Assembly: GCA_021813555.1 (NCBI GenBank)
Contig: JAKAKG010000204.1
Location: forward strand, 1-34,119
Length of the DNA: 34,119 bases
Reading direction: 5' to 3'
Origin: Acidobacteriota bacterium
Lineage (GTDB): Bacteria > Acidobacteriota > UBA4820 > DSQY01
The notes under the pieces were generated by a model that was not told the DNA's origin, searched no databases, and saw only the letters and a program-made list of their open reading frames with translations. A program made the position numbers and the translations under genes. Shown in pieces: positions 60-27,525 of this stretch (position 1 is its first letter; each line of letters starts with the position of its first letter).

Positions 60-1109
60 TCAGAGGAGGTTCCGCGCCTTCATGAGTTCCGCGATGAGGA
101 TCGTGTTACCCGCAGCGCCCCTGAGGGTGTTGTGGACGAGGGCCACGAAGCGGAGCCCCAGAACGGGGCACGGCTTGAGCCGGCCCACGGTGGCCGACAT
201 CCCCCGGCAGGCGTCCCGGTCCAGGACGGGCTGGGGGCGGGCGGCACTCCGGTTCAAGAGGACGGGGCGCTCGGGCGCTGAAGGCAGGGCCAGCCCCTCC
301 AGGGGCGAGCGGTAGCCTTCAATCGCCTCGGCGGCCTCCTCGAGAGTGGCGCGCTTTTCCATCTCCACGGACACGGAAAGGAGATGCCCGTCCCTCACGG
401 CCACGCGGTTGCACTGGGCGCTCAGCGCGACGGGATGCGCCTCGACTTCCGAGCCGGACAGCGTTCCGAAGATCTTGGCGGGCTCGCGCTCCAGCTTGTC
501 CTCCTCCCCAGGGATGAGGGGAAGAACGTTGTCCACCACGTCCATGGACGGAACTCCGGGATATCCGGCGCCGGAGAGGGCCTGCATCGTGGTCACCTGC
601 ACGCGCCGCAGGCCGAAAGCCTTCCTCAGGGGTTCCAGCGCCAGGCAGAGGCCGATGGTGGAGCAGTTGGGGTTGGTGACGATGGCGCCGCCGCAGCGCG
701 CGCGCTGCCCGGAGATCATGGCGAGGTGGCCGGGGTTCACCTCGGGAACCACGAGGGGCACGTCGGGATGCATGCGGTAGGCGCTGGCGTTGCTGACCAC
801 CGTCTTGCCGGCGGCCCGGAACCGGCCCTCCACGCTCTCGGCGGCGGCCGGGTCCAGCGCCGAGAACACGAGGTCCGCGTCCACCGCCGCCGGCTCAGCC
901 GCCACGAGGGCCAAGGCCGCGGCTTCCTCGGGCACGCTCCCGGGCAGGAGCCACCGCACCACCTCTCCGTAGGCACGGCCCTCGGAACGGCCCGAAGCCG
1001 CCACCGCCGCAAGCTCGAACCAGGGGTGCCCCGCCAGGAGCTGCACGAAGCGCTGCCCCACGGCTCCCGTGGCCCCCAGGACGGCGACTCTCGTCTTCTC
1101 ACTGTCCAT
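60..1109 (-). CDS. asd: aspartate-semialdehyde dehydrogenase, archaeal/fungal type
   Basis: Reduces aspartyl phosphate to aspartate semialdehyde with NADPH, the second step of the pathway to lysine, threonine and methionine. The 349-residue protein starts with the dinucleotide-binding loop GATGAVG (residues 12-18). The catalytic cysteine is C149 in NPNCSTIGL, and the catalytic histidine is probably H242 in NRVAVRDGH. The segment ALSGAGYPGVPSMD (177-190) is typical of the archaeal/fungal subfamily rather than the E. coli type. The ATG is preceded by AAGGAG nine bases upstream. The start overlaps the end of lysC by 11 bases, so the two are probably translationally coupled. It is the last gene of the metY-metX-lysC-asd operon. 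A weak hairpin (31-49) follows the stop but lacks a U-tract. Identification is firm. Confidence 0.96.
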   Translation of the reverse strand: MDSEKTRVAVLGATGAVGQRFVQLLAGHPWFELAAVAASGRSEGRAYGEVVRWLLPGSVPEEAAALALVAAEPAAVDADLVFSALDPAAAESVEGRFRAAGKTVVSNASAYRMHPDVPLVVPEVNPGHLAMISGQRARCGGAIVTNPNCSTIGLCLALEPLRKAFGLRRVQVTTMQALSGAGYPGVPSMDVVDNVLPLIPGEEDKLEREPAKIFGTLSGSEVEAHPVALSAQCNRVAVRDGHLLSVSVEMEKRATLEEAAEAIEGYRSPLEGLALPSAPERPVLLNRSAARPQPVLDRDACRGMSATVGRLKPCPVLGLRFVALVHNTLRGAAGNTILIAELMKARNLL

Positions 1110-2466
1110 GATCGAGCTCCTTCTCGAAGAATCGCCGGTGCAGGCGCGAGACCACCCGCGAGAGGTCCTCCTCCGCCACCGCGAAGCTCAAGGCGATGTC
1201 CGACCCTCCCTGCGACACCATGGTCACACCCACGTCCCGCAGGTCCTGAAAGACCTGCCCCACGATGCCCGGCGTCTCCTTGAGCTTCTCGCCCACCACG
1301 GCCACGAGGGCTTGCGAGGAACGGACGCTCACGGCGCCCAGGCCGCGCAGGTCCTCCACCGCTTCGGAGAGGCCCGGGCCCGGGCTCACGGCAAGGGCCA
1401 CCGAAACTTCCGACGTGGCCACCAGGTCCGGGGCGATCCGCCGGTGCTCCAGCACTTCGAAGAGCCGCCGCAAAAAGCCCTGCGCCTTGAACATGCGCGC
1501 CGACACGAGGGTCACCACGGTCATCCCCTCCTTGTAGGCGATGCTCTTGACGGGACCTCCGTTGGGAGAAACTCGGGCGAGGATGAGCGTCCCCCGCGCC
1601 TCGGGGCGCGCCGTGTTGAGCACGCGCACGGGGATGCCGCGGTCCACGGCGGGAGCGAGGGTCTTGGGATGAAGGACCCGGGCGCCGAAGAAGGCCAGTT
1701 CCGCCGCCTCCTGGAAGCTCATGGCGGGGATGTTTCGGGCCTCGGGCACGAGGGAGGGATCGGCCGTCATGATGCCGTCCACGTCGGTCCAGATTTCAAT
1801 TTCCTCGGCGCCGAGCGCGGCGCCCAAGAGCGACGCGGTGAGGTCCGACCCGCCCCGCCCCAGGGTCGTGCTTGCACCGCCCGCGGACCGGCCGATGAAC
1901 CCCTGGGTCAGGGGGATGCGTCCTTGCTCCACCAGAGGCAGAAGGATCTGCTTGCAGCGAGCGGCCATGGCGTCGAAGTCCGGTTCGGCTTGCGTGTGCC
2001 GAGCGTCGGTCACCATGAACGTGCGGGCATCCATCCACGCCACGGGAAGCCCTTCCTGGAGGAAGACGTGGCGGAGCATGGCCGTGCAGAGCAACTCGCC
2101 CAAGCCCAGGAGCCGGTCCTGCACCGCCGGGGAAAAATCCCAGAGGACGGCAAGGCCGCGGGCCACGTCCTCCATCTCGGAGAAAAGGTGCTCGCACTGA
2201 GCCCAGGCCTCCTCGCCGTTCCCCGGCATCAGGTCTTCAAAAATGGCGCGGTGGTAGGCTTTCAACGCCGCCAGGGTGCCCAGGCTTGCCTCCAGCCTCC
2301 CCTCGGCGGCTTGCTCCCCCATCCGGTGGAGGATGTCGGTGGTATCGCCCATGGCCGAGAAGACGAGGACGGGACACTGCGAAACCCGGCCCTTCACCAC
2401 CGCCATAGTCTTGCGTATGTTGGCGGCGTCGCCCACGGAGGTGCCGCCGAATTTGAGGATCTTCAC
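1099..2466 (-). CDS. lysC: aspartate kinase (monofunctional, ACT-regulated)
   Basis: Phosphorylates aspartate, the committed step of the aspartate family of amino acids. The 455-residue length fits the long monofunctional class (E. coli LysC is about 450). The kinase motif KFGGTSV lies at residues 5-11. A glycine-rich GRGGSDLTA segment and a [10 protein letters not shown] segment follow in the catalytic domain. The C-terminal third (from about residue 310) looks like tandem ACT domains, the usual site of feedback inhibition, though the effector cannot be read from sequence. The start codon is GTG. It shares GTGA with the metX stop (4-base overlap) and has GGAGG five bases upstream. Lying in an operon behind a SAM riboswitch, this copy should be controlled by methionine status. 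A second kinase for lysine and threonine supply may exist elsewhere. Confidence 0.95.
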
Positions 2467-3593
2467 GGGAGCCTCCCGCCGAGAAACGCGGCGATCATGG
2501 GGTTGATTTGCCCGTACTCCACCAGGAAGGCGTCATGCCCGTAGGGCGAGGCCAGCTCCGCGTAGGCCGCCTCCTTGCCCAGGCGAGCGAGCAGCTCCGC
2601 GGCCTCCCTCATCTCCCACGCGGGAAAGAGGACGTCCGTGTCGATGCCCACGCTGAGGACTGCCGTCTGAACGCGCGAGAGCGCCGCCTCCAGCCCGCCG
2701 CGGTCCCTGGCCACGTCATGCAGGTCCATGGCGCCGGTGAGAGCGAGATAGGTCCTGGCGTCGAAGCGCCCCACGAGTTTTTCGCCCTGGTGGTGAAGGT
2801 ACCGCTCCACCTGAAAAGGATTGCGAGGATCAAGACCCCTGGCCGCATCCTGGTCCTCCCGGTCCCGGCCGAAGCGCTGGCCGAAGAGGCGGTCCGTGCG
2901 GTAGGTCGTCATGGCCAGTTGCCGGGCCAGAGAGAGGCCCCGCACGGGGCCCGGGCCCGCGTAACGCCCCCCGAGCCATGCGGGATCATTTACGATGGCC
3001 TGGCGCGCCACGGCGTTGAAGGCCACGGCCCAGGGCGAGGTCTGCGGCGCACCCGCCAGCGGCGCCGCGCGCCTGGCGAAGCCGGGATACTCGGCGATGA
3101 ACTCCCACACCACCATGGCTCCGAGGGAACCGCCGAGCATGAGGGCGAGGCCCCGGATGCCGAGGTGGTCCAGGAGGCATTTTTGAATTCGTGCCATGTC
3201 GCGCGTGGTGACTACGGGAAAGCCGCACGCCGAGGGCTGGCCCATGGCCGGGTCCTCGTCCGAGGGGCCGCTCGTGCCGTAGCATCCTCCCAGCAGGTTG
3301 GTGCAGAGGATGAAGTGCCTCTCGGGGTCGAGGGCCTGTCCCGGACCGATGAGGCCTTCCCACCAGCCCGGCCGCCCGTCACCCGAACTGCCCCCCGAGG
3401 CGGCGTGCGAGTCGCCCGTGAGGGCGTGCACCAAGAGGACGGCGTTGTCCCCTTGGCCGTTCAGTTCGCCCCAAGTCTCGTAGGCGACGCGGGGACGGTG
3501 GAGAACGGTCCCGCCTTCGAAGGTGAAGGGGCCTGGCAGTTCGACGACGCTGCCCCGCTCGCGTTGTTCCCTTTCCATGGGCGGAGTCCTCAC
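2463..3593 (-). CDS. metX: homoserine O-acetyltransferase
   Basis: Transfers acetyl from acetyl-CoA to homoserine, giving the substrate used by MetY. It is a 376-residue alpha/beta hydrolase of the MetX family. The nucleophile elbow is GGSLGAM with S156. The rest of the triad is probably D320 (in GIDTDVLFP) and H353 (in SPYGHDAF). The family segment NLLGGCYGTSGP is at 99-110. The GTG start shares GTGA with the metY stop and has GGAGG four bases upstream. An internal ATG five codons later is possible but has a poorer context. The family also contains succinyltransferases that cannot be excluded by eye, but the MetY partner fits the acetyl route. Confidence 0.95.
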   Translation of the reverse strand: MRTPPMEREQRERGSVVELPGPFTFEGGTVLHRPRVAYETWGELNGQGDNAVLLVHALTGDSHAASGGSSGDGRPGWWEGLIGPGQALDPERHFILCTNLLGGCYGTSGPSDEDPAMGQPSACGFPVVTTRDMARIQKCLLDHLGIRGLALMLGGSLGAMVVWEFIAEYPGFARRAAPLAGAPQTSPWAVAFNAVARQAIVNDPAWLGGRYAGPGPVRGLSLARQLAMTTYRTDRLFGQRFGRDREDQDAARGLDPRNPFQVERYLHHQGEKLVGRFDARTYLALTGAMDLHDVARDRGGLEAALSRVQTAVLSVGIDTDVLFPAWEMREAAELLARLGKEAAYAELASPYGHDAFLVEYGQINPMIAAFLGGRLP

Positions 3594-4870
3594 GTCGCCT
3601 CCAGGGCCTGGTTCAAGTCATCGAGGATATCGCCGATGTGCTCGATCCCGATGGAAAGCCTCACCAGGTCGGGCGTGATGCCCCCCGCCCGTTGCTCCTC
3701 GTCGCTGAGCTGGGCATGGGTTGTGGTGGCGGGATGGATGGCCAGGCTCTTGGCGTCCCCCACGTTGGCCAGGTGGGAGAAGAGCTTCAAGGTGTCGATG
3801 AAGGCCTGGCCGCCCTCTTTCCCGCTCTTGATCCCGAAGACCACCACCCCGCCGTAACCGCCGCCGAGCAAGCGCTTCGCCACGGGGTGCGCCGCGTCGT
3901 CCTCCAGCCCGGGATAGCGCACCCACGCGGCCTTGGGGTGGCCCTTGAGAAACCTCGCCACGGCGAGGGCGTTCTGGCAGTGGCGCTCCATGCGCAGGGG
4001 CAGGGTCTCCAGCCCTTGCAGGGCGAGCCACGCATTGTCAGGGTTGAGGCACGCACCCAGGTTGCGCAGGGGCACGAGGCGCGCGCGGAGGATGAAGGCC
4101 TGCGCGGACAGGGGCCCCAGATCATGGGCAAAGCGCAGTCCGTGATAGCTGGGCTCGGGCTCGTTGAAGAGGGCGAACTTGGGGTCGGTCCAGTCGAAGG
4201 TTCCCGAGTCCACGATGACGCCGCCGAGGAACGTCCCGTGGCCTCCGATCCACTTCGTGAGCGAATGCACCACGACGTGGGCCCCCTGCTCGATGGGGCG
4301 GCAGAGGCAGGGCGTGGCGAAGGTGTTGTCCACCATGAGGGGCACGTGGTGCCGCTCGGCCACGGCGGCTACGGCGGGGAGGTCCGCCACGTCCAGGGAG
4401 GGATTCCCCATGGTCTCCACGAAGAGGGCCCGCGTCTTGTCCGTGATGGCCGCCTCGAACGCCTGCGGGGATGAGGCATTCACGAAGCGCGTGCGGATGC
4501 CGAACTGGGGCAGGATGTCGTGGAACTGCGTCATGGTCCCGCCGTACAGGTTGTCCGCCGCCACGATCTCGTCCCCCGCCCGCGCCAAGTTGATGACGGC
4601 GTAGAAGACCGCCGCCGTCCCCGAGCTCACGGCCAGCGCCCCCGCGCCACCTTCCAGAGCGGCCATGCGCTTCTCCAGCACCTCGTGCGTGGGGTTCTGC
4701 AGGCGCGTGTAGATGTTGCCCGGCTCCTTGAGGGCGAAGAGGTCCGCCGCGTGCCGGGAGCTCTTGAACACGTAGCTCGACGTGCGGTGCACCGGCACCG
4801 CCCGCGCCCCCGTCTCATCGATCCCCTGCCCCGCGTGCAAGCAGAGCGTTTCAAGCCGCTGTGCCGCCAT
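3590..4870 (-). CDS. metY: O-acetylhomoserine sulfhydrylase (PLP-dependent)
   Basis: Makes homocysteine from O-acetylhomoserine and sulfide, so methionine can be built by direct sulfhydrylation. The 426-residue protein belongs to the Cys/Met metabolism PLP family. The PLP lysine is K206 in [11 protein letters not shown]. The phosphate-binding SSGTAA is at 82-87, and YTRLQNPT (54-61) is the usual active-site stretch. The ATG has a perfect AGGAGG five bases upstream. It is first in the operon. The 250-base leader carries the promoter, SAM-II riboswitch, terminator and heptad repeats annotated separately. A cystathionine gamma-synthase role is less likely given the length (about 425, against about 390 for MetB) and the metX neighbour. 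Confidence 0.95.
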
Positions 4871-4903
4871 GGAAACCTCCTGAAATGAACACGCCCCCCG
4901 CCC

Positions 4904-4987
4904 ATTGCCTATTGCCTATTGCCTATTGCCCATTGCCTATTGCCCATTGCCTATTGCCAATTGCCCATTGCCTTTTCCCCATTGCCC
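4904..4987. repeat. heptanucleotide tandem repeat in the metY leader (12 x 7 bp)
   Basis: Twelve back-to-back 7-base units with plus-strand consensus ATTGCCY. The array runs without an indel for 84 bases. Ten units are ATTGCCT or ATTGCCC, one is ATTGCCA (4953-4959) and one is degenerate (TTTCCCC, 4974-4980). In the metY transcript it reads as RGGCAAU units between the riboswitch terminator and the ribosome binding site. Copy-number slippage would lengthen or shorten the untranslated leader without touching the reading frame. No function is known. Confidence 0.95.
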
Positions 4988-4990
4988 AAA

Positions 4991-5023
4991 CAAAAAGACC
5001 GCCTCAGCATCAGCCGGACGGTC
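4991..5023 (-). terminator. intrinsic terminator of the SAM-II riboswitch
   Basis: Read on the minus strand, the left arm GACCG-U-CC (5023-5016, one bulged U) pairs with GGCGGUC (5003-4997). The inner loop can also pair GGC with GCU. UUUUUG follows directly (4996-4991). This is a standard rho-independent terminator before metY. Its left arm overlaps the competing GGACG/CGUCC hairpin (5030-5016). Confidence 0.8.
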
Positions 5024-5027
5024 CGCG

Positions 5028-5083
5028 TCCCGCTTTAGCTGCATTTATTAAGCGCCCGCAAGCTGAGGATCAAATCGGCGCTT
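5028..5083 (-). ncRNA. SAM-II (SAM-alpha) riboswitch aptamer
   Basis: Minus strand, in order: stem P1 left arm AAGCGCC (5083-5077), the conserved GAUUUG (5076-5071), a loop holding UCCU, GCUUGC, P1 right arm GGCGCUU (5056-5050), then AAUAAAUGCA and GCUAAAG ending in GGGA (5031-5028). This matches the SAM-II layout: GAUUUG after P1, a GCUUGC/GCAAGC-like segment before the closing arm, an A-rich linker and GCUAAA. Loop UCCU (5069-5066) can pair with GGGA to make the family's pseudoknot. Family knowledge: SAM-II binds S-adenosylmethionine and represses methionine genes, mostly in Alphaproteobacteria. The location before metY agrees. A covariance search was not possible here. Confidence 0.88.
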
Positions 5084-5098
5084 CGCCACCAGACCGGG

Positions 5099-5128
5099 AG
5101 ATTACTCCTCCTCCCGAGCCGCTGTCAA
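5099..5128 (-). promoter_or_regulatory. sigma70-type promoter of the metYX-lysC-asd operon
   Basis: Minus strand: TTGACA (-35, 5128-5123), an 18-base spacer, TAATCT (-10, 5104-5099). The predicted start near 5092 places the riboswitch about ten bases into the transcript. No better candidate was seen in the leader. Confidence 0.75.
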
Positions 5129-5348: not shown

Positions 5349-6623
5349 TCAGCCTCCGGAGAGGCCCTTGAGGAAGGCCTCGTTGTTTTCAAAGTCGTTG
5401 AGCTTGCCGATGAGCAGCTCCATGGCTTCGACGGTGGAGAGGGGGTTGAGGATCTTGCGGAGGATCCACATGCGGTTGAGCTCGAAGGCCTCGGTGAGAA
5501 GCTCTTCCTTGCGGGTGCCGCTCTTGTTGATGTCGATGGCGGGGAAGGTGCGCTTGTCCACAAGCTTGCGGTCGAGGTGGATCTCCATGTTGCCCGTGCC
5601 CTTGAATTCCTCGAAGATCACGTCGTCCATGCGGGAGCCCGTGTCCACGAGGGCGGTGGCGATGATGGTGAGGGAGCCGCCCTCCTCGATGTTTCGAGCC
5701 GCGCCGAAGAAGCGCTTGGGCTTCTGGAGGGCGTTGGCGTCGAGGCCGCCGGAGAGGACGCGTCCCGAAGGCGGCGTCACGGTGTTGTAGGCGCGGGCCA
5801 TGCGGGTGATGGAGTCCAGGAGGATGACCACGTCGCGGCCGAGCTCCACGAGGCGCTTGGCCTTCTCCATGACCATTTCGGCCACCTGGACGTGCCGCGT
5901 GGGGGGCTCGTCGAAGGTGGAGGCCTGCACTTCGCCCTTAACGGACCGCTGCATGTCCGTGACCTCCTCGGGCCGCTCGTCGATGAGGAGGACGATCAAG
6001 TAGGCCTCGGGATGGTTGGCCGTGATGGCGTGGGCGATGGCCTGGAGGAGCATGGTTTTGCCCGTGCGGGGCTGGGCCACGATGAGGCCGCGCTGGCCGA
6101 AGCCGATGGGCGACACGAGGTCGAGGACGCGGCCCGACATCTCCCCCTTGCTCACTTCCATGCGGATGCGGCGGGTGGGATAGATGGGGGTCAGGGCATC
6201 GAACCACATGCGGTCCCGGGTCTTGACCGTGCTCTCGAAGTTGATGGCGTCCACCTTGATGAGGGCGAAGTATTTCTCCCCCTCCTTGGGCGGCCTCACC
6301 TGGCCCGAGATGGTGTCCCCCGTCCGCAGGCCGAACTTCTTGATCTGCGACGGGCTCACGTAGATGTCGTCGGGACCGGGCAGGTAGTTGTACTCGGGGG
6401 CCCGCAGGAAGCCGAAGCCGTCCTGGAGGATCTCGAGCACGCCCTCGGCGAAGATGAAGCCGTTGGCCTCCGCCTGGGACTTGAGGATCTGGAAGATCAG
6501 ATCCTGCCGTCTCAGGGTCGAGATGCCTTCGATCTCAAATTCCTTGCCGAGCTTGATGAGCTCCGTGGGGGGCATGTCGTGCAGTTTGGCCAGGTCCAGG
6601 TTTTCCGTCCGTTCTTTCGTCAT
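5349..6623 (-). CDS. rho: transcription termination factor Rho
   Basis: Hexameric RNA-dependent ATPase and helicase that ends transcription at C-rich untranslated RNA. The protein has 424 residues. It has an N-terminal helical part (1-50), an RNA-binding cold-shock-like domain with DGFGFLR (68-74), and a RecA-type motor with Walker A QPRTGKT (185-191). [13 protein letters not shown] is the Walker B/Q-loop region. The ATG at 6623 is chosen because GAGGAA lies just upstream and because the homologous start MTKERTENL begins there. An in-frame ATG nine codons earlier lies inside the end of engB. It follows engB by seven bases, so the two are probably cotranscribed. It lacks the large N-terminal insertions seen in some high-GC Rho proteins. 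Confidence 0.97.
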
Positions 6624-6630
6624 CGCTTCC

Positions 6631-7206
6631 TCACTCCATGGTCTCCTCAAACTTCCTAAGAACCGTTTTCGCCCCCTCGCGGCTCACCGCCGAGAAGGGG
6701 ATGGGCGTCTGTTCAGGGGCCAGGCCCAGCGCCTCGGACCAGGCCTTGGCCCGGGGCTTCCACTGGCCCCGGGACACTTTGTCGCACTTGGTCATGACCA
6801 CAAAAAAGGGCCGGCCGTAGTGGCGGAAGTACTCCACCATGGCCCGTTCCCCGTCGCCCGCCTCCCGGCGCACGTCCACGAGCAGGCACGCGGCGGCACA
6901 GGCGGGGCGCTTCAAATAGGCCTCCACGAGTTTGGCCCATGAGGCCTTCACGCTGAGGGGCACCTTGGCGTAGCCGAAGCCGGGAAGATCCACGACGTAG
7001 CCCCGGTCCTGAAGCCGGGCGAAGATGACCGCCTGCGTCCGTCCCGGGGTGTTGCTCACGCGCATGAGGCCCTTCCGCTTGAAAATCACGTTGATGAGGG
7101 ACGATTTCCCCACGTTGGAGCGCCCGATGACCGCCACCTCGGGGAGCGAGGGCGGGGGGAACTGCGACGGTGCCTGGCACACCCGCTCGACCTGCAACTC
7201 CGGCAT
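6631..7206 (-). CDS. engB: ribosome-biogenesis GTPase EngB (YsxC/YihA)
   Basis: Small TRAFAC-class GTPase needed for large-subunit ribosome assembly. With the ATG at 7206 it has 191 residues. G1 is GRSNVGKS (28-35), G2 lies in TPGRTQ, G3 is DLPGFGYA, G4 is TKCDK and G5 is the SAV segment near the end. The ATG has GGAG five bases upstream. An in-frame TTG at 7233 would add nine residues but has no better ribosome binding site. The gene before it, lon, ends upstream across a 150-base spacer with A/T-rich runs and no confident promoter. Confidence 0.94.
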
Positions 7207-24056: not shown

Positions 24057-24095
24057 TGAAAGGACACGGGGAGGTAGATCACGGAGGGGTTTTTT

Positions 24096-24116
24096 GCTCC
24101 CTGCTCCCTGCTCCCT
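24096..24116. repeat. three-unit heptad repeat after uvrC
   Basis: GCTCCCT repeated three times without gaps, followed by GCTT at the uvrC stop. It shares the 7-base period, but not the sequence, of the arrays at 4904 and 27435. Confidence 0.8.
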
Positions 24117-24118
24117 GC

Positions 24119-25924
24119 TTACCTCTCACCGCCGCCCACTTCCGGTTTTCCCGCGCTCTCCCCCCCCGCCCACGCCCTGATCCTCCGGGCGGCGGCCTTG
24201 CCGACCGCCTTAATGAGCTGCTCCTCGCCAGCGGCTTTCACGGCCTCGGTGGTGAGAAAGGCCCGGAGCAGTTTTCGCGCCGTCACGGGACCCACGCCGG
24301 GCACCAGGAGGAGCGGGGAGGCCGTGCGCGCCTTGGCCCGCCGGCTGCGGTGGCGGGTGATCGCGAAGCGGTGCGCTTCATCGCGGATTTCTTGGAGGAG
24401 GTGGAGCGCCGGAGATTCCTTCGGCAGGACGATGGGCGAAGCATCGTAGGGTTTGAAGAGCCACTCCTCCCGCTTGGCGATGCCCGCCACCGGCGGCGGA
24501 TCGGGCAGGAGCTGGGCGAGGACTCCGTGGGCCGAGTTGACTTGGCCGGGCCCTCCGTCGATGAGGATCAGATCGGGAAGTGGCCCCTCCTCCTCCACGA
24601 GGCGAATGTACCGTCGTCCCACGGCCTCGGCCATGGAAGCGAAGTCGTCCACACCCGCCACGGTCTTCACGTTGAAGGTCCTGTACTGGGCCTTCTGCAT
24701 GCGCCCGCCTTCCCAGACCACGCAGGAGGCCACGGTGGCCTCGCCGGCGCTGTGGGAGACGTCGAAGCACTCGATCCGGGCGGGAGCGGCGGGCAACCCC
24801 AGGGCAGCGGCGAGGGGCTTGAGCACCACGGCGGGGTCCGCGCGCGATTCAAATTCCAGGCGAGCGTTCTCCATGAGGGTCGTCACGAGGGCCGCCTTCT
24901 CACCTCGCAGCGGGTGGGTCACCGCCACCTTGCGTCCCTTTCGCTCCGAGAGGAACCGCTCCAAAAGGGGCATGTCCTCGAACTCCAGGGAGACGGCCAC
25001 GCCGTCGGGAACGACGGGAGCATTTCCGTAGAGGCGCATGAGCGCCGAAGCCATGAGGTCCTCCGCGCCCAGCTCCACTTCGCTGAAGCGCCAGCGCCGC
25101 CGGTCGACCACCTTCCCGTCCACCACGACGAAGCCGTGCAAGACGTAGGATTCACCCGCCCCGTAGAGGGCGAAGAAATCCCAGTGCCCCTCGCCGGGCC
25201 TGGCCACAGCCTGCCTGCCGCCGAGGAACTCGGCCGCCGTCACCAGATCCCTGTAGTGGGCCGCGAGCTCATACTCCATCTTGTCGGCCGCGGCTGTCAT
25301 TCGGCGCCGCAGCTCGTCGCGCAGCTCCGCCGTCCTCCCTTCGAGGAAGAGGCGCGCTTCCTCCACGACCTTGCGGTAGTCCTCCGGCTTCACCCTGCCC
25401 TTCATGCACGGGGCGTAGCATTGGCCCATCTCGTAGTAGAGGCAGGGGCGCGGACGGGAGCCGTCCAAGGGATCCCTGCACGTGACCACTCGAAAGTGTT
25501 CCTGGAGGATGCGCAGGTTTTTCTTGGCCTGCCACCCCGGGACGAAGGGGCCGAAATACAGAGCGCCGTCCTTCTCCGGCTTGCGCGTGAAGACCGCTTT
25601 CGGATAGGTGTCCTTCACGGTGAGCTTGAGATAGGGATAGGTCTTGTCGTCCTTGAGCAGGGTGTTGAACTGGGGCTTGAACTGTTTGATGAGGTTGTTC
25701 TCGAGGAGGAAGGCCTCCCACTCGGTCGCCGTGACGATGAACTCAAGCTCCTCGGATTGGCGTCGCAGGCGCTGGATCTTGAGGGGGGCGCGATCTTGAA
25801 AATAGTGGGCGACCCTCGCCCGGAGATTCTTCGCCTTGCCCACGTAGAGGGGCCGCTTCTTCCCGTCTCGAAAGATGTAGCAACCCGGCCTGCGGGGCAC
25901 GTGGTCCGGTGCGCGGTCCAGCAT
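24119..25924 (-). CDS. uvrC: UvrABC excinuclease subunit C
   Basis: Makes the two incisions in nucleotide excision repair. With the ATG at 25924 it has 601 residues. The GIY-YIG nuclease starts at GCYIFRDG and LYVGKAKNLRARV (about 14-36), for the 3' cut. The UVR UvrB-contact helix region lies at about 190-240. The RNase H-like nuclease for the 5' cut includes ECFDVSHSAGE and LILIDGGPGQVNSA. A helix-hairpin-helix pair ends the protein (VPGVGPVTARKLL and following). The start is chosen because GAGGAG lies a few bases upstream and the extra 14 codons of the longer frame lack similarity. It stands as a single gene here. Confidence 0.96.
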   Translation of the reverse strand: MLDRAPDHVPRRPGCYIFRDGKKRPLYVGKAKNLRARVAHYFQDRAPLKIQRLRRQSEELEFIVTATEWEAFLLENNLIKQFKPQFNTLLKDDKTYPYLKLTVKDTYPKAVFTRKPEKDGALYFGPFVPGWQAKKNLRILQEHFRVVTCRDPLDGSRPRPCLYYEMGQCYAPCMKGRVKPEDYRKVVEEARLFLEGRTAELRDELRRRMTAAADKMEYELAAHYRDLVTAAEFLGGRQAVARPGEGHWDFFALYGAGESYVLHGFVVVDGKVVDRRRWRFSEVELGAEDLMASALMRLYGNAPVVPDGVAVSLEFEDMPLLERFLSERKGRKVAVTHPLRGEKAALVTTLMENARLEFESRADPAVVLKPLAAALGLPAAPARIECFDVSHSAGEATVASCVVWEGGRMQKAQYRTFNVKTVAGVDDFASMAEAVGRRYIRLVEEEGPLPDLILIDGGPGQVNSAHGVLAQLLPDPPPVAGIAKREEWLFKPYDASPIVLPKESPALHLLQEIRDEAHRFAITRHRSRRAKARTASPLLLVPGVGPVTARKLLRAFLTTEAVKAAGEEQLIKAVGKAAARRIRAWAGGESAGKPEVGGGER

Positions 25925-27385: not shown

Positions 27386-27434
27386 GGGGACGAGGGACAG
27401 GGGGCAGGAGACAAGAGGTGGCGCTTCGGGCTTC

Positions 27435-27525
27435 GCGTCTTGCGTCTCGCGTCTTGCGTCTCGCGTCTCGCGTTTCGCGTCTCGCGTCTCGCGTCTCGCA
27501 TCCTGTGTCTCGCGTCTCGCATCTT
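27435..27525. repeat. heptanucleotide tandem repeat (13 x 7 bp) at the DhaL/DegV 3' end
   Basis: Thirteen gapless units of GCGTCTC or GCGTCTT, with three degraded units (GCGTTTC, GCATCCT, GTGTCTC) and a final GCATCTT. The last two bases belong to the stop codon of the DhaL/DegV gene. The array fills most of the spacer to plsY. Confidence 0.95.

Follow-up and report, generated by a model that had tools for sequence, protein, structure and literature searches.

A probable SAM-II riboswitch of a divergent subtype, predicted to terminate transcription ahead of a metY-metX-lysC-asd operon in an acidobacterial genome

The window analysed here, by which we mean the whole stretch of 34,119 nucleotides (contig JAKAKG010000204.1 of assembly GCA_021813555.1), comes from an acidobacterial genome and carries a four-gene operon, each product of which scored over the cut-off of its protein family model:

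3590-4870, minus strand: metY, O-acetylhomoserine sulfhydrylase (TIGR01326)
2463-3593, minus strand: metX, homoserine O-acetyltransferase (NF001209)
1099-2466, minus strand: lysC, aspartate kinase (TIGR00657)
60-1109, minus strand: asd, aspartate-semialdehyde dehydrogenase (TIGR00978)

This gene order is retained in three further genomes of the same family (G003, G005 and G006; 51-79% protein identity). A genome search found neither a second aspartokinase nor a second asd, an absence that is likely rather than certain at a genome completeness of 98.6%; the other weak matches were read as a UMP kinase, a saccharopine-dehydrogenase-like protein and an NmrA-like protein. An aptamer lies on the minus strand in the interval that separates rho (5349-6650) from metY, and the leader to which it belongs contains the following parts, given in the order of transcription:

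5123-5128, minus strand: probable -35 box, TTGACA, as read in the sequence
5104-5099, minus strand: putative weak -10 box, TAATCT, 18 bases after TTGACA
5083-5077, minus strand: P1 5' strand, AAGCGCC, pairing with 5056-5050
5058-5076, minus strand: loop L1, holding GAUUUG (5076-5071) and GCUUGC (5063-5058)
5067-5065, minus strand: P2 pseudoknot 5' strand, CUC, in the homologous register
5056-5050, minus strand: P1 3' strand, GGCGCUU, pairing with 5083-5077
5039-5033, minus strand: conserved core GCUAAAG, from the RF00521 alignment
5034-5026, minus strand: predicted antiterminator 5' side, AGC.GGACG, from transcript folding and relatives
5031-5029, minus strand: P2 pseudoknot 3' strand, GGG, partly common to the antiterminator
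5024-5013 / 5008-4996, minus strand: intrinsic terminator hairpin with loop UGAU and bulged A5004, from predicted folds
5020-5012, minus strand: predicted antiterminator 3' side, CGUCC.GCU, within the terminator 5' arm and loop
5002-5008, minus strand: terminator 3' arm GCUGAGG, fully complementary to L1 CCUCAGC (5068-5062)
4992-4996, minus strand: terminator U tract, as read in the sequence
4900-4988, minus strand: tandem repeat of GGCAATA type (7 bases, 12 copies), between terminator and ribosome-binding site
4876-4881, minus strand: metY Shine-Dalgarno (SD) sequence AGGAGG, ~110 bases beyond the terminator

The putative promoter has counterparts in three relatives (G006, G008 and G054), where TTGACA stands upstream of P1 and is followed after 17-18 bases by TACATT, TAGATT and TATAAA, respectively; a promoter consensus scan under a stricter rule gave no qualifying site in the leader. 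The 12-copy array lengthens the metY leader relative to that of a sister genome, which is without it; arrays of this type are present on several further contigs of the genome, and the window holds two other seven-base tandem repeats, at 27433-27524 (TCGCGTC) and 24095-24119 (TGCTCCC).

The leader element upstream of metY is very likely a SAM-II aptamer of a divergent subtype, with SAM the ligand to be expected from its sequence. A permissive scan of the window matched the Rfam SAM-II model (RF00521, also called SAM_alpha, the metA motif of Corbino et al., 2005; PMC1273637) at 5013-5091 on the minus strand (31.2 bits, E = 2.1e-5), and across the whole 3.3 Mb genome the same match reached E = 4.6e-5 vs. 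7.9 for the runner-up; the window copy is the genome's sole RF00521 match of such significance. Within the same permissive scan, neither RF01726 (SAM-II with long loops) nor SAM-V gave a match up to E = 10. With default settings, on the other hand, an Rfam scan reported two tRNAs in the window and no riboswitch, because 31.2 bits falls under the curated RF00521 cut-off of 36 bits. This value divides the relatives that share the subtype, some scoring below it (21.6 in G003, 25.8 in G002, 30.5 in G008, 30.8 in G001 and 31.9 in G302) and some above (36.5 in G005 and 39.4 in G054), and we therefore take the cut-off to reflect how the database is set rather than what defines a SAM-II. The divergent subtype shows why standard scans overlook such switches.

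The window shares the following with RF00521 SAM-II: P1, the P2 pseudoknot, the conserved motifs GAUUUG, GCUUGC and GCUAAAG, a position ahead of a met gene and a downstream terminator. It differs in that its subtype has GGCGCC-GAUUUG...CAGCUUGC-GGGCGC, with GCUAAAGC directly adjoining P2, and in its score, which compares with 85 bits for Sinorhizobium meliloti metZ. The genomic context, a metY-metX operon downstream, fits that of SAM-II leaders, which precede methionine and SAM genes. Two plasmids gave blastn hits to the region, one from Paracoccus (~52 bases at 90.6% identity) and one from Legionella (~53 bases at 87.3%), and both of these stretches also match SAM-II. In a comparison of 19 sequences that takes in Burkholderia, Legionella and Paracoccus, GAUUU and CUUGC of L1 are invariant, as is GCUAAA, and the final G of GAUUUG and the first G of GCUUGC are nearly so. 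The initial annotation had claimed a full SAM-II aptamer, naming a covariance scan as the check, and the claim has held: every sequence that it quoted lies where it was placed, the RF00521 match is significant yet under the curated cut-off, and related leaders keep the aptamer, including P1, GAUUUG and GCUAAAG, together with the terminator.

Covariation supports both P1 and P2 in the window's subtype, 14 sequences of which, picked by eye and by regular expression, were aligned (alignment A2). Three of the seven P1 pairs covary, and in P2, in the register 5068-5065 : 5031-5028, all four pairs show both-side changes, taking the forms CG, GC, UA, AU and UG. Over the two helices, both-side changes occur in 21 cells vs. 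6.3 in shuffles, and the covariation score is 0.406 vs. 0.024-0.089 for slid registers. In the window itself, this register gives three of the four P2 pairs, one of them a U.G (C5065:G5031, U5066.G5030 and C5067:G5029; C5068 faces A5028). The pseudoknot had previously been drawn as UCCU with GGGA, and of this the strands and the GGG stand; the register, however, was off by one, and the alignment speaks against the shift (87% of cells are paired in the homologous register vs. 42-49% in slid ones). A covariance model built from the subtype (R1) was run on 396 Acidobacteriota genomes; at E <= 0.001 it matched 14 of them, belonging to families f1, f4, f24 and f44, and one of these, found at E = 7e-14, had been left out of model building (G379). 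These results also bear on the idea of a decayed relic, or of an aptamer for another ligand such as SAH, in a leader that is conserved nonetheless. Such a view could draw on the sub-threshold score and on the weakness of P2 in the window, but it would have to accommodate core bases that are all kept, a P2 that covaries in the subtype and the same genes under control in several genomes, and we consider it very improbable.

The same aptamer occurs in six further genomes of the family (G001, G002, G003, G005, G006 and G008), of which G001 and G002 are genus-mates of the window's genome. It lies upstream of metY wherever the contig reaches that gene, that is, in all but G008, where it sits near a contig end and the portion examined contains no operon genes; terminators stand at the equivalent position in all six. 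The window has one copy, whereas G005, G008, G054 and G302 have two of its subtype in tandem, an arrangement with 44 known examples among SAM-II riboswitches (PMC9481103). The pair in G054 lies upstream of metK (locus L008). G004 has a different SAM-II, upstream of a homocysteine-methyltransferase-like gene.

SAM-II was described in alpha-proteobacteria, with a few cases elsewhere and with terminators after many copies (PMC1273637). An acidobacterial location had been flagged as unusual. This did not survive the survey: 65 of the 396 Acidobacteriota genomes, from many families, have an RF00521 match at E <= 0.01, and in 34 the match is over the curated cut-off, so that standard annotation would already reveal many acidobacterial SAM-II riboswitches. 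We found no report of SAM-II in Acidobacteriota in the literature searched (open-licence papers), and the window thus places in an acidobacterial lineage a form of control described in the literature for Proteobacteria and Bacteroidetes. Among MetY relatives outside Acidobacteriota (loci L035-L037 and L039-L113), no SAM-II of the window's subtype was found. The subtype also occurs before other genes: upstream of a MoxR-type AAA ATPase gene, an unexpected target, at three loci (L230 in G014, L231 in G302 and L232 in G110; three genomes, two families); upstream of an ABC-transporter ATPase gene resembling metN on a Legionella adelaidensis plasmid (L200); and upstream of a hypothetical gene on a Paracoccus seriniphilus plasmid (L199).

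An intrinsic terminator is present between aptamer and metY (-17.2 kcal/mol for 5024-4997 in the predicted fold), and an antiterminator that draws on bases of the aptamer, and cannot coexist with the terminator, is predicted. In folds of the growing transcript, the antiterminator AGC.GGACG:CGUCC.GCU is the best fold for ends from 5013 to 5002, and the terminator wins once 4997 is reached; for the 94-base RNA the two are only 0.4 kcal/mol apart (-32.7 for the free fold, which forms the terminator, vs. -32.3 for the antiterminator fold). To mimic bound SAM, L1, the core and the P2 3' strand were blocked in a constrained fold, which kept the terminator. The antiterminator segment is stabler than ~97% of shuffles in the window and than 94-99% in four other family copies, but for the first G005 copy the figure is only 74%; the whole leader, by minimum free energy, is no better than shuffles (z = -0.21). 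The same layout recurs in G001, G002, G006, G008 and the second copy of G005, and in each family copy the last two to four bases of the core are taken up in the antiterminator. GGACG:CGUCC itself hardly varies within the family and so speaks for conservation, not for covariation. This short helix is what the initial annotation had proposed as the antiterminator, and it is contained in the predicted best fold; the helix is longer than was proposed, adding A5034-G5033-C5032 : G5014-C5013-U5012 past a mismatch, and would therefore also take in the last bases of the conserved GCUAAAG(C).

In transcripts ending at 5002-5000, the predicted fold pairs the terminator 3' arm GCUGAGG (5008-5002) with CCUCAGC of L1 (5068-5062). 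We considered this pairing as the main antiterminator and rejected it; it is lost in G003 and G006, and we retain it as a side contact, conceivably a second antiterminator contact confined to the genus, which is speculation from the folds. An 11-base equivalent exists in G054, whose first terminator carries CGCAAGCUGAG, the complement of its own L1. Duplex energies of the core with its own and with other terminators were uninformative, because related leaders share sequence.

Taken together, we propose, with a probability of roughly 0.87, that the leader is a SAM-II riboswitch which, at high SAM levels, turns off metY-metX-lysC-asd through early termination of transcription. The aptamer with P1 and P2, the terminator and the operon are evident from the sequence and from comparison with relatives; that SAM is the ligand and that an antiterminator forms we infer, as we do the OFF direction, which follows from predicted folds and from the known behaviour of SAM-II. 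Without SAM, AGC.GGACG (5034-5026) would pair with CGUCC.GCU (5020-5012) in the terminator's 5' arm and tip, possibly with help from L1 or CAGC (5041-5038) touching the 3' arm, no terminator would form and the operon would be transcribed. With SAM bound, the P1/P2 pseudoknot would lock L1, the core and GGG (5031-5029) and so block the antiterminator, the terminator (5024-4996) would fold and RNA polymerase would halt at the U run. A SAM-OFF switch of this kind had been suggested before, and it remains the best reading of the predicted folds, of the conservation in the family and of the usual platform, terminators being the common arrangement for SAM-II in alpha- and beta-proteobacteria (PMC2258182). 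No aspartokinase or aspartate-semialdehyde dehydrogenase gene besides those of this operon was found in the genome; under the proposed control, SAM would thus throttle entry to the whole aspartate family (lysine, threonine and methionine), which raises the question of basal expression.

The aptamer might instead act on translation or on RNA stability, the terminator being a constitutive attenuator. There are precedents, in that the SD is hidden in P2 in the Sargasso metX-type SAM-II and in S. meliloti metA, whose leader also has a terminator for which SAM dependence was not predicted (PMC9373788). In the window, however, the metY SD (4881-4876) lies outside P2 and ~110 bases beyond the terminator, which makes occlusion of the ribosome site by P2 unlikely, and the overlap of the P2 3' strand and core with the antiterminator is kept in relatives; we regard this alternative as unlikely. 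Transcription termination, by comparison, has a parallel in S. meliloti metZ, where termination was predicted to depend on SAM and levels of the terminated sRNA go up in rich medium (PMC9373788). In its predicted fold (L204, which we took to be metZ, as the record's second strong copy besides metA), the P2 3' strand GGCCGG likewise pairs with the terminator 5' arm CCGGUC as an antiterminator; unlike the window, this leader differs in sequence and controls a sulfhydrylase gene rather than a four-gene operon.

One further family required attention, since RF02424 ('Burkholderia sRNA Bp2_287') matches the plus strand of the window at 4992-5117 with 25.5 bits, and the conserved RNA could accordingly be a plus-strand sRNA. 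That score is far under the cut-off of 70, and the terminator, its U run and the promoter-like boxes are all on the minus strand. Moreover, the loci in Burkholderia and Caballeronia that RF02424 matches strongly (L209, L210 and L211; 205, 204 and 96 bits) read on their opposite strand GCGUCGAUUUGAUAUCAGCUUGCGGACGC...CAGCUAAAGCG (the Burkholderia form), then a terminator and, where we read through it (L210 and L211), a MetZ-like reading frame. Model R1 finds these metZ leaders on the sense strand (38, 35 and 27 bits), and RF00521 does not match them. They read GCGUC-GAUUUG...CAGCUUGC-GGACGC...CAGCUAAAGCG and have a terminator, a layout like that of the window's subtype, from which they differ in a longer insert before GCUAAAG and a weak P2. 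This suggests that RF02424 is the antisense strand of a SAM-II-like metZ leader, that is, a catalogued 'sRNA' family that would be the wrong strand of a riboswitch, and the window's resemblance to it would then be the reverse complement of SAM-II. We have therefore set the plus-strand sRNA aside as the most improbable of the readings weighed here. The beta-proteobacterial metXZ element, a pseudoknot and terminator upstream of metX and metZ (PMC4239095), is probably the same SAM-II-like leader.

Capture of the core by a terminator recurs in another form. Hairpins containing UUURRY, complementary to GCUAAA, were present in 42 of 91 SAM-II leaders, these being the leaders with a hairpin by a simple rule and including a few proteobacterial ones, vs. 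8.6 in 200 shuffles (sd 2.8, maximum 18). In 33 of the 42, the base that follows GCUAAA pairs with its counterpart in the tip (C with G, G with C and U with A) vs. a mean of 22.8 and a maximum of 31 in 2000 permutations, a comparison that is not a strict probability because the leaders are related. Such tips occur in at least nine families, counted over loci assigned to genomes, and many of the core:tip complements are 9-10 bp long, for example GCUAAACAGC with GCUGUUUGGC. These patterns point to a likely antiterminator in which terminator tips complementary to GCUAAAN capture the SAM-binding core. By a modest margin over even odds, we favour a widespread and undescribed SAM-II platform in which tip and ligand would compete for the core, with the window a composite form and its subtype accounting for the metXZ element and RF02424. 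Acidobacteriota examples of core-complementary tips include L116, L033, L173 and L185. Finally, the second copy in G005 (L011) and L211 have an extra hairpin or a long insert between the P1 3' strand and GCUAAAG, similar to the long-loop forms of SAM-II.
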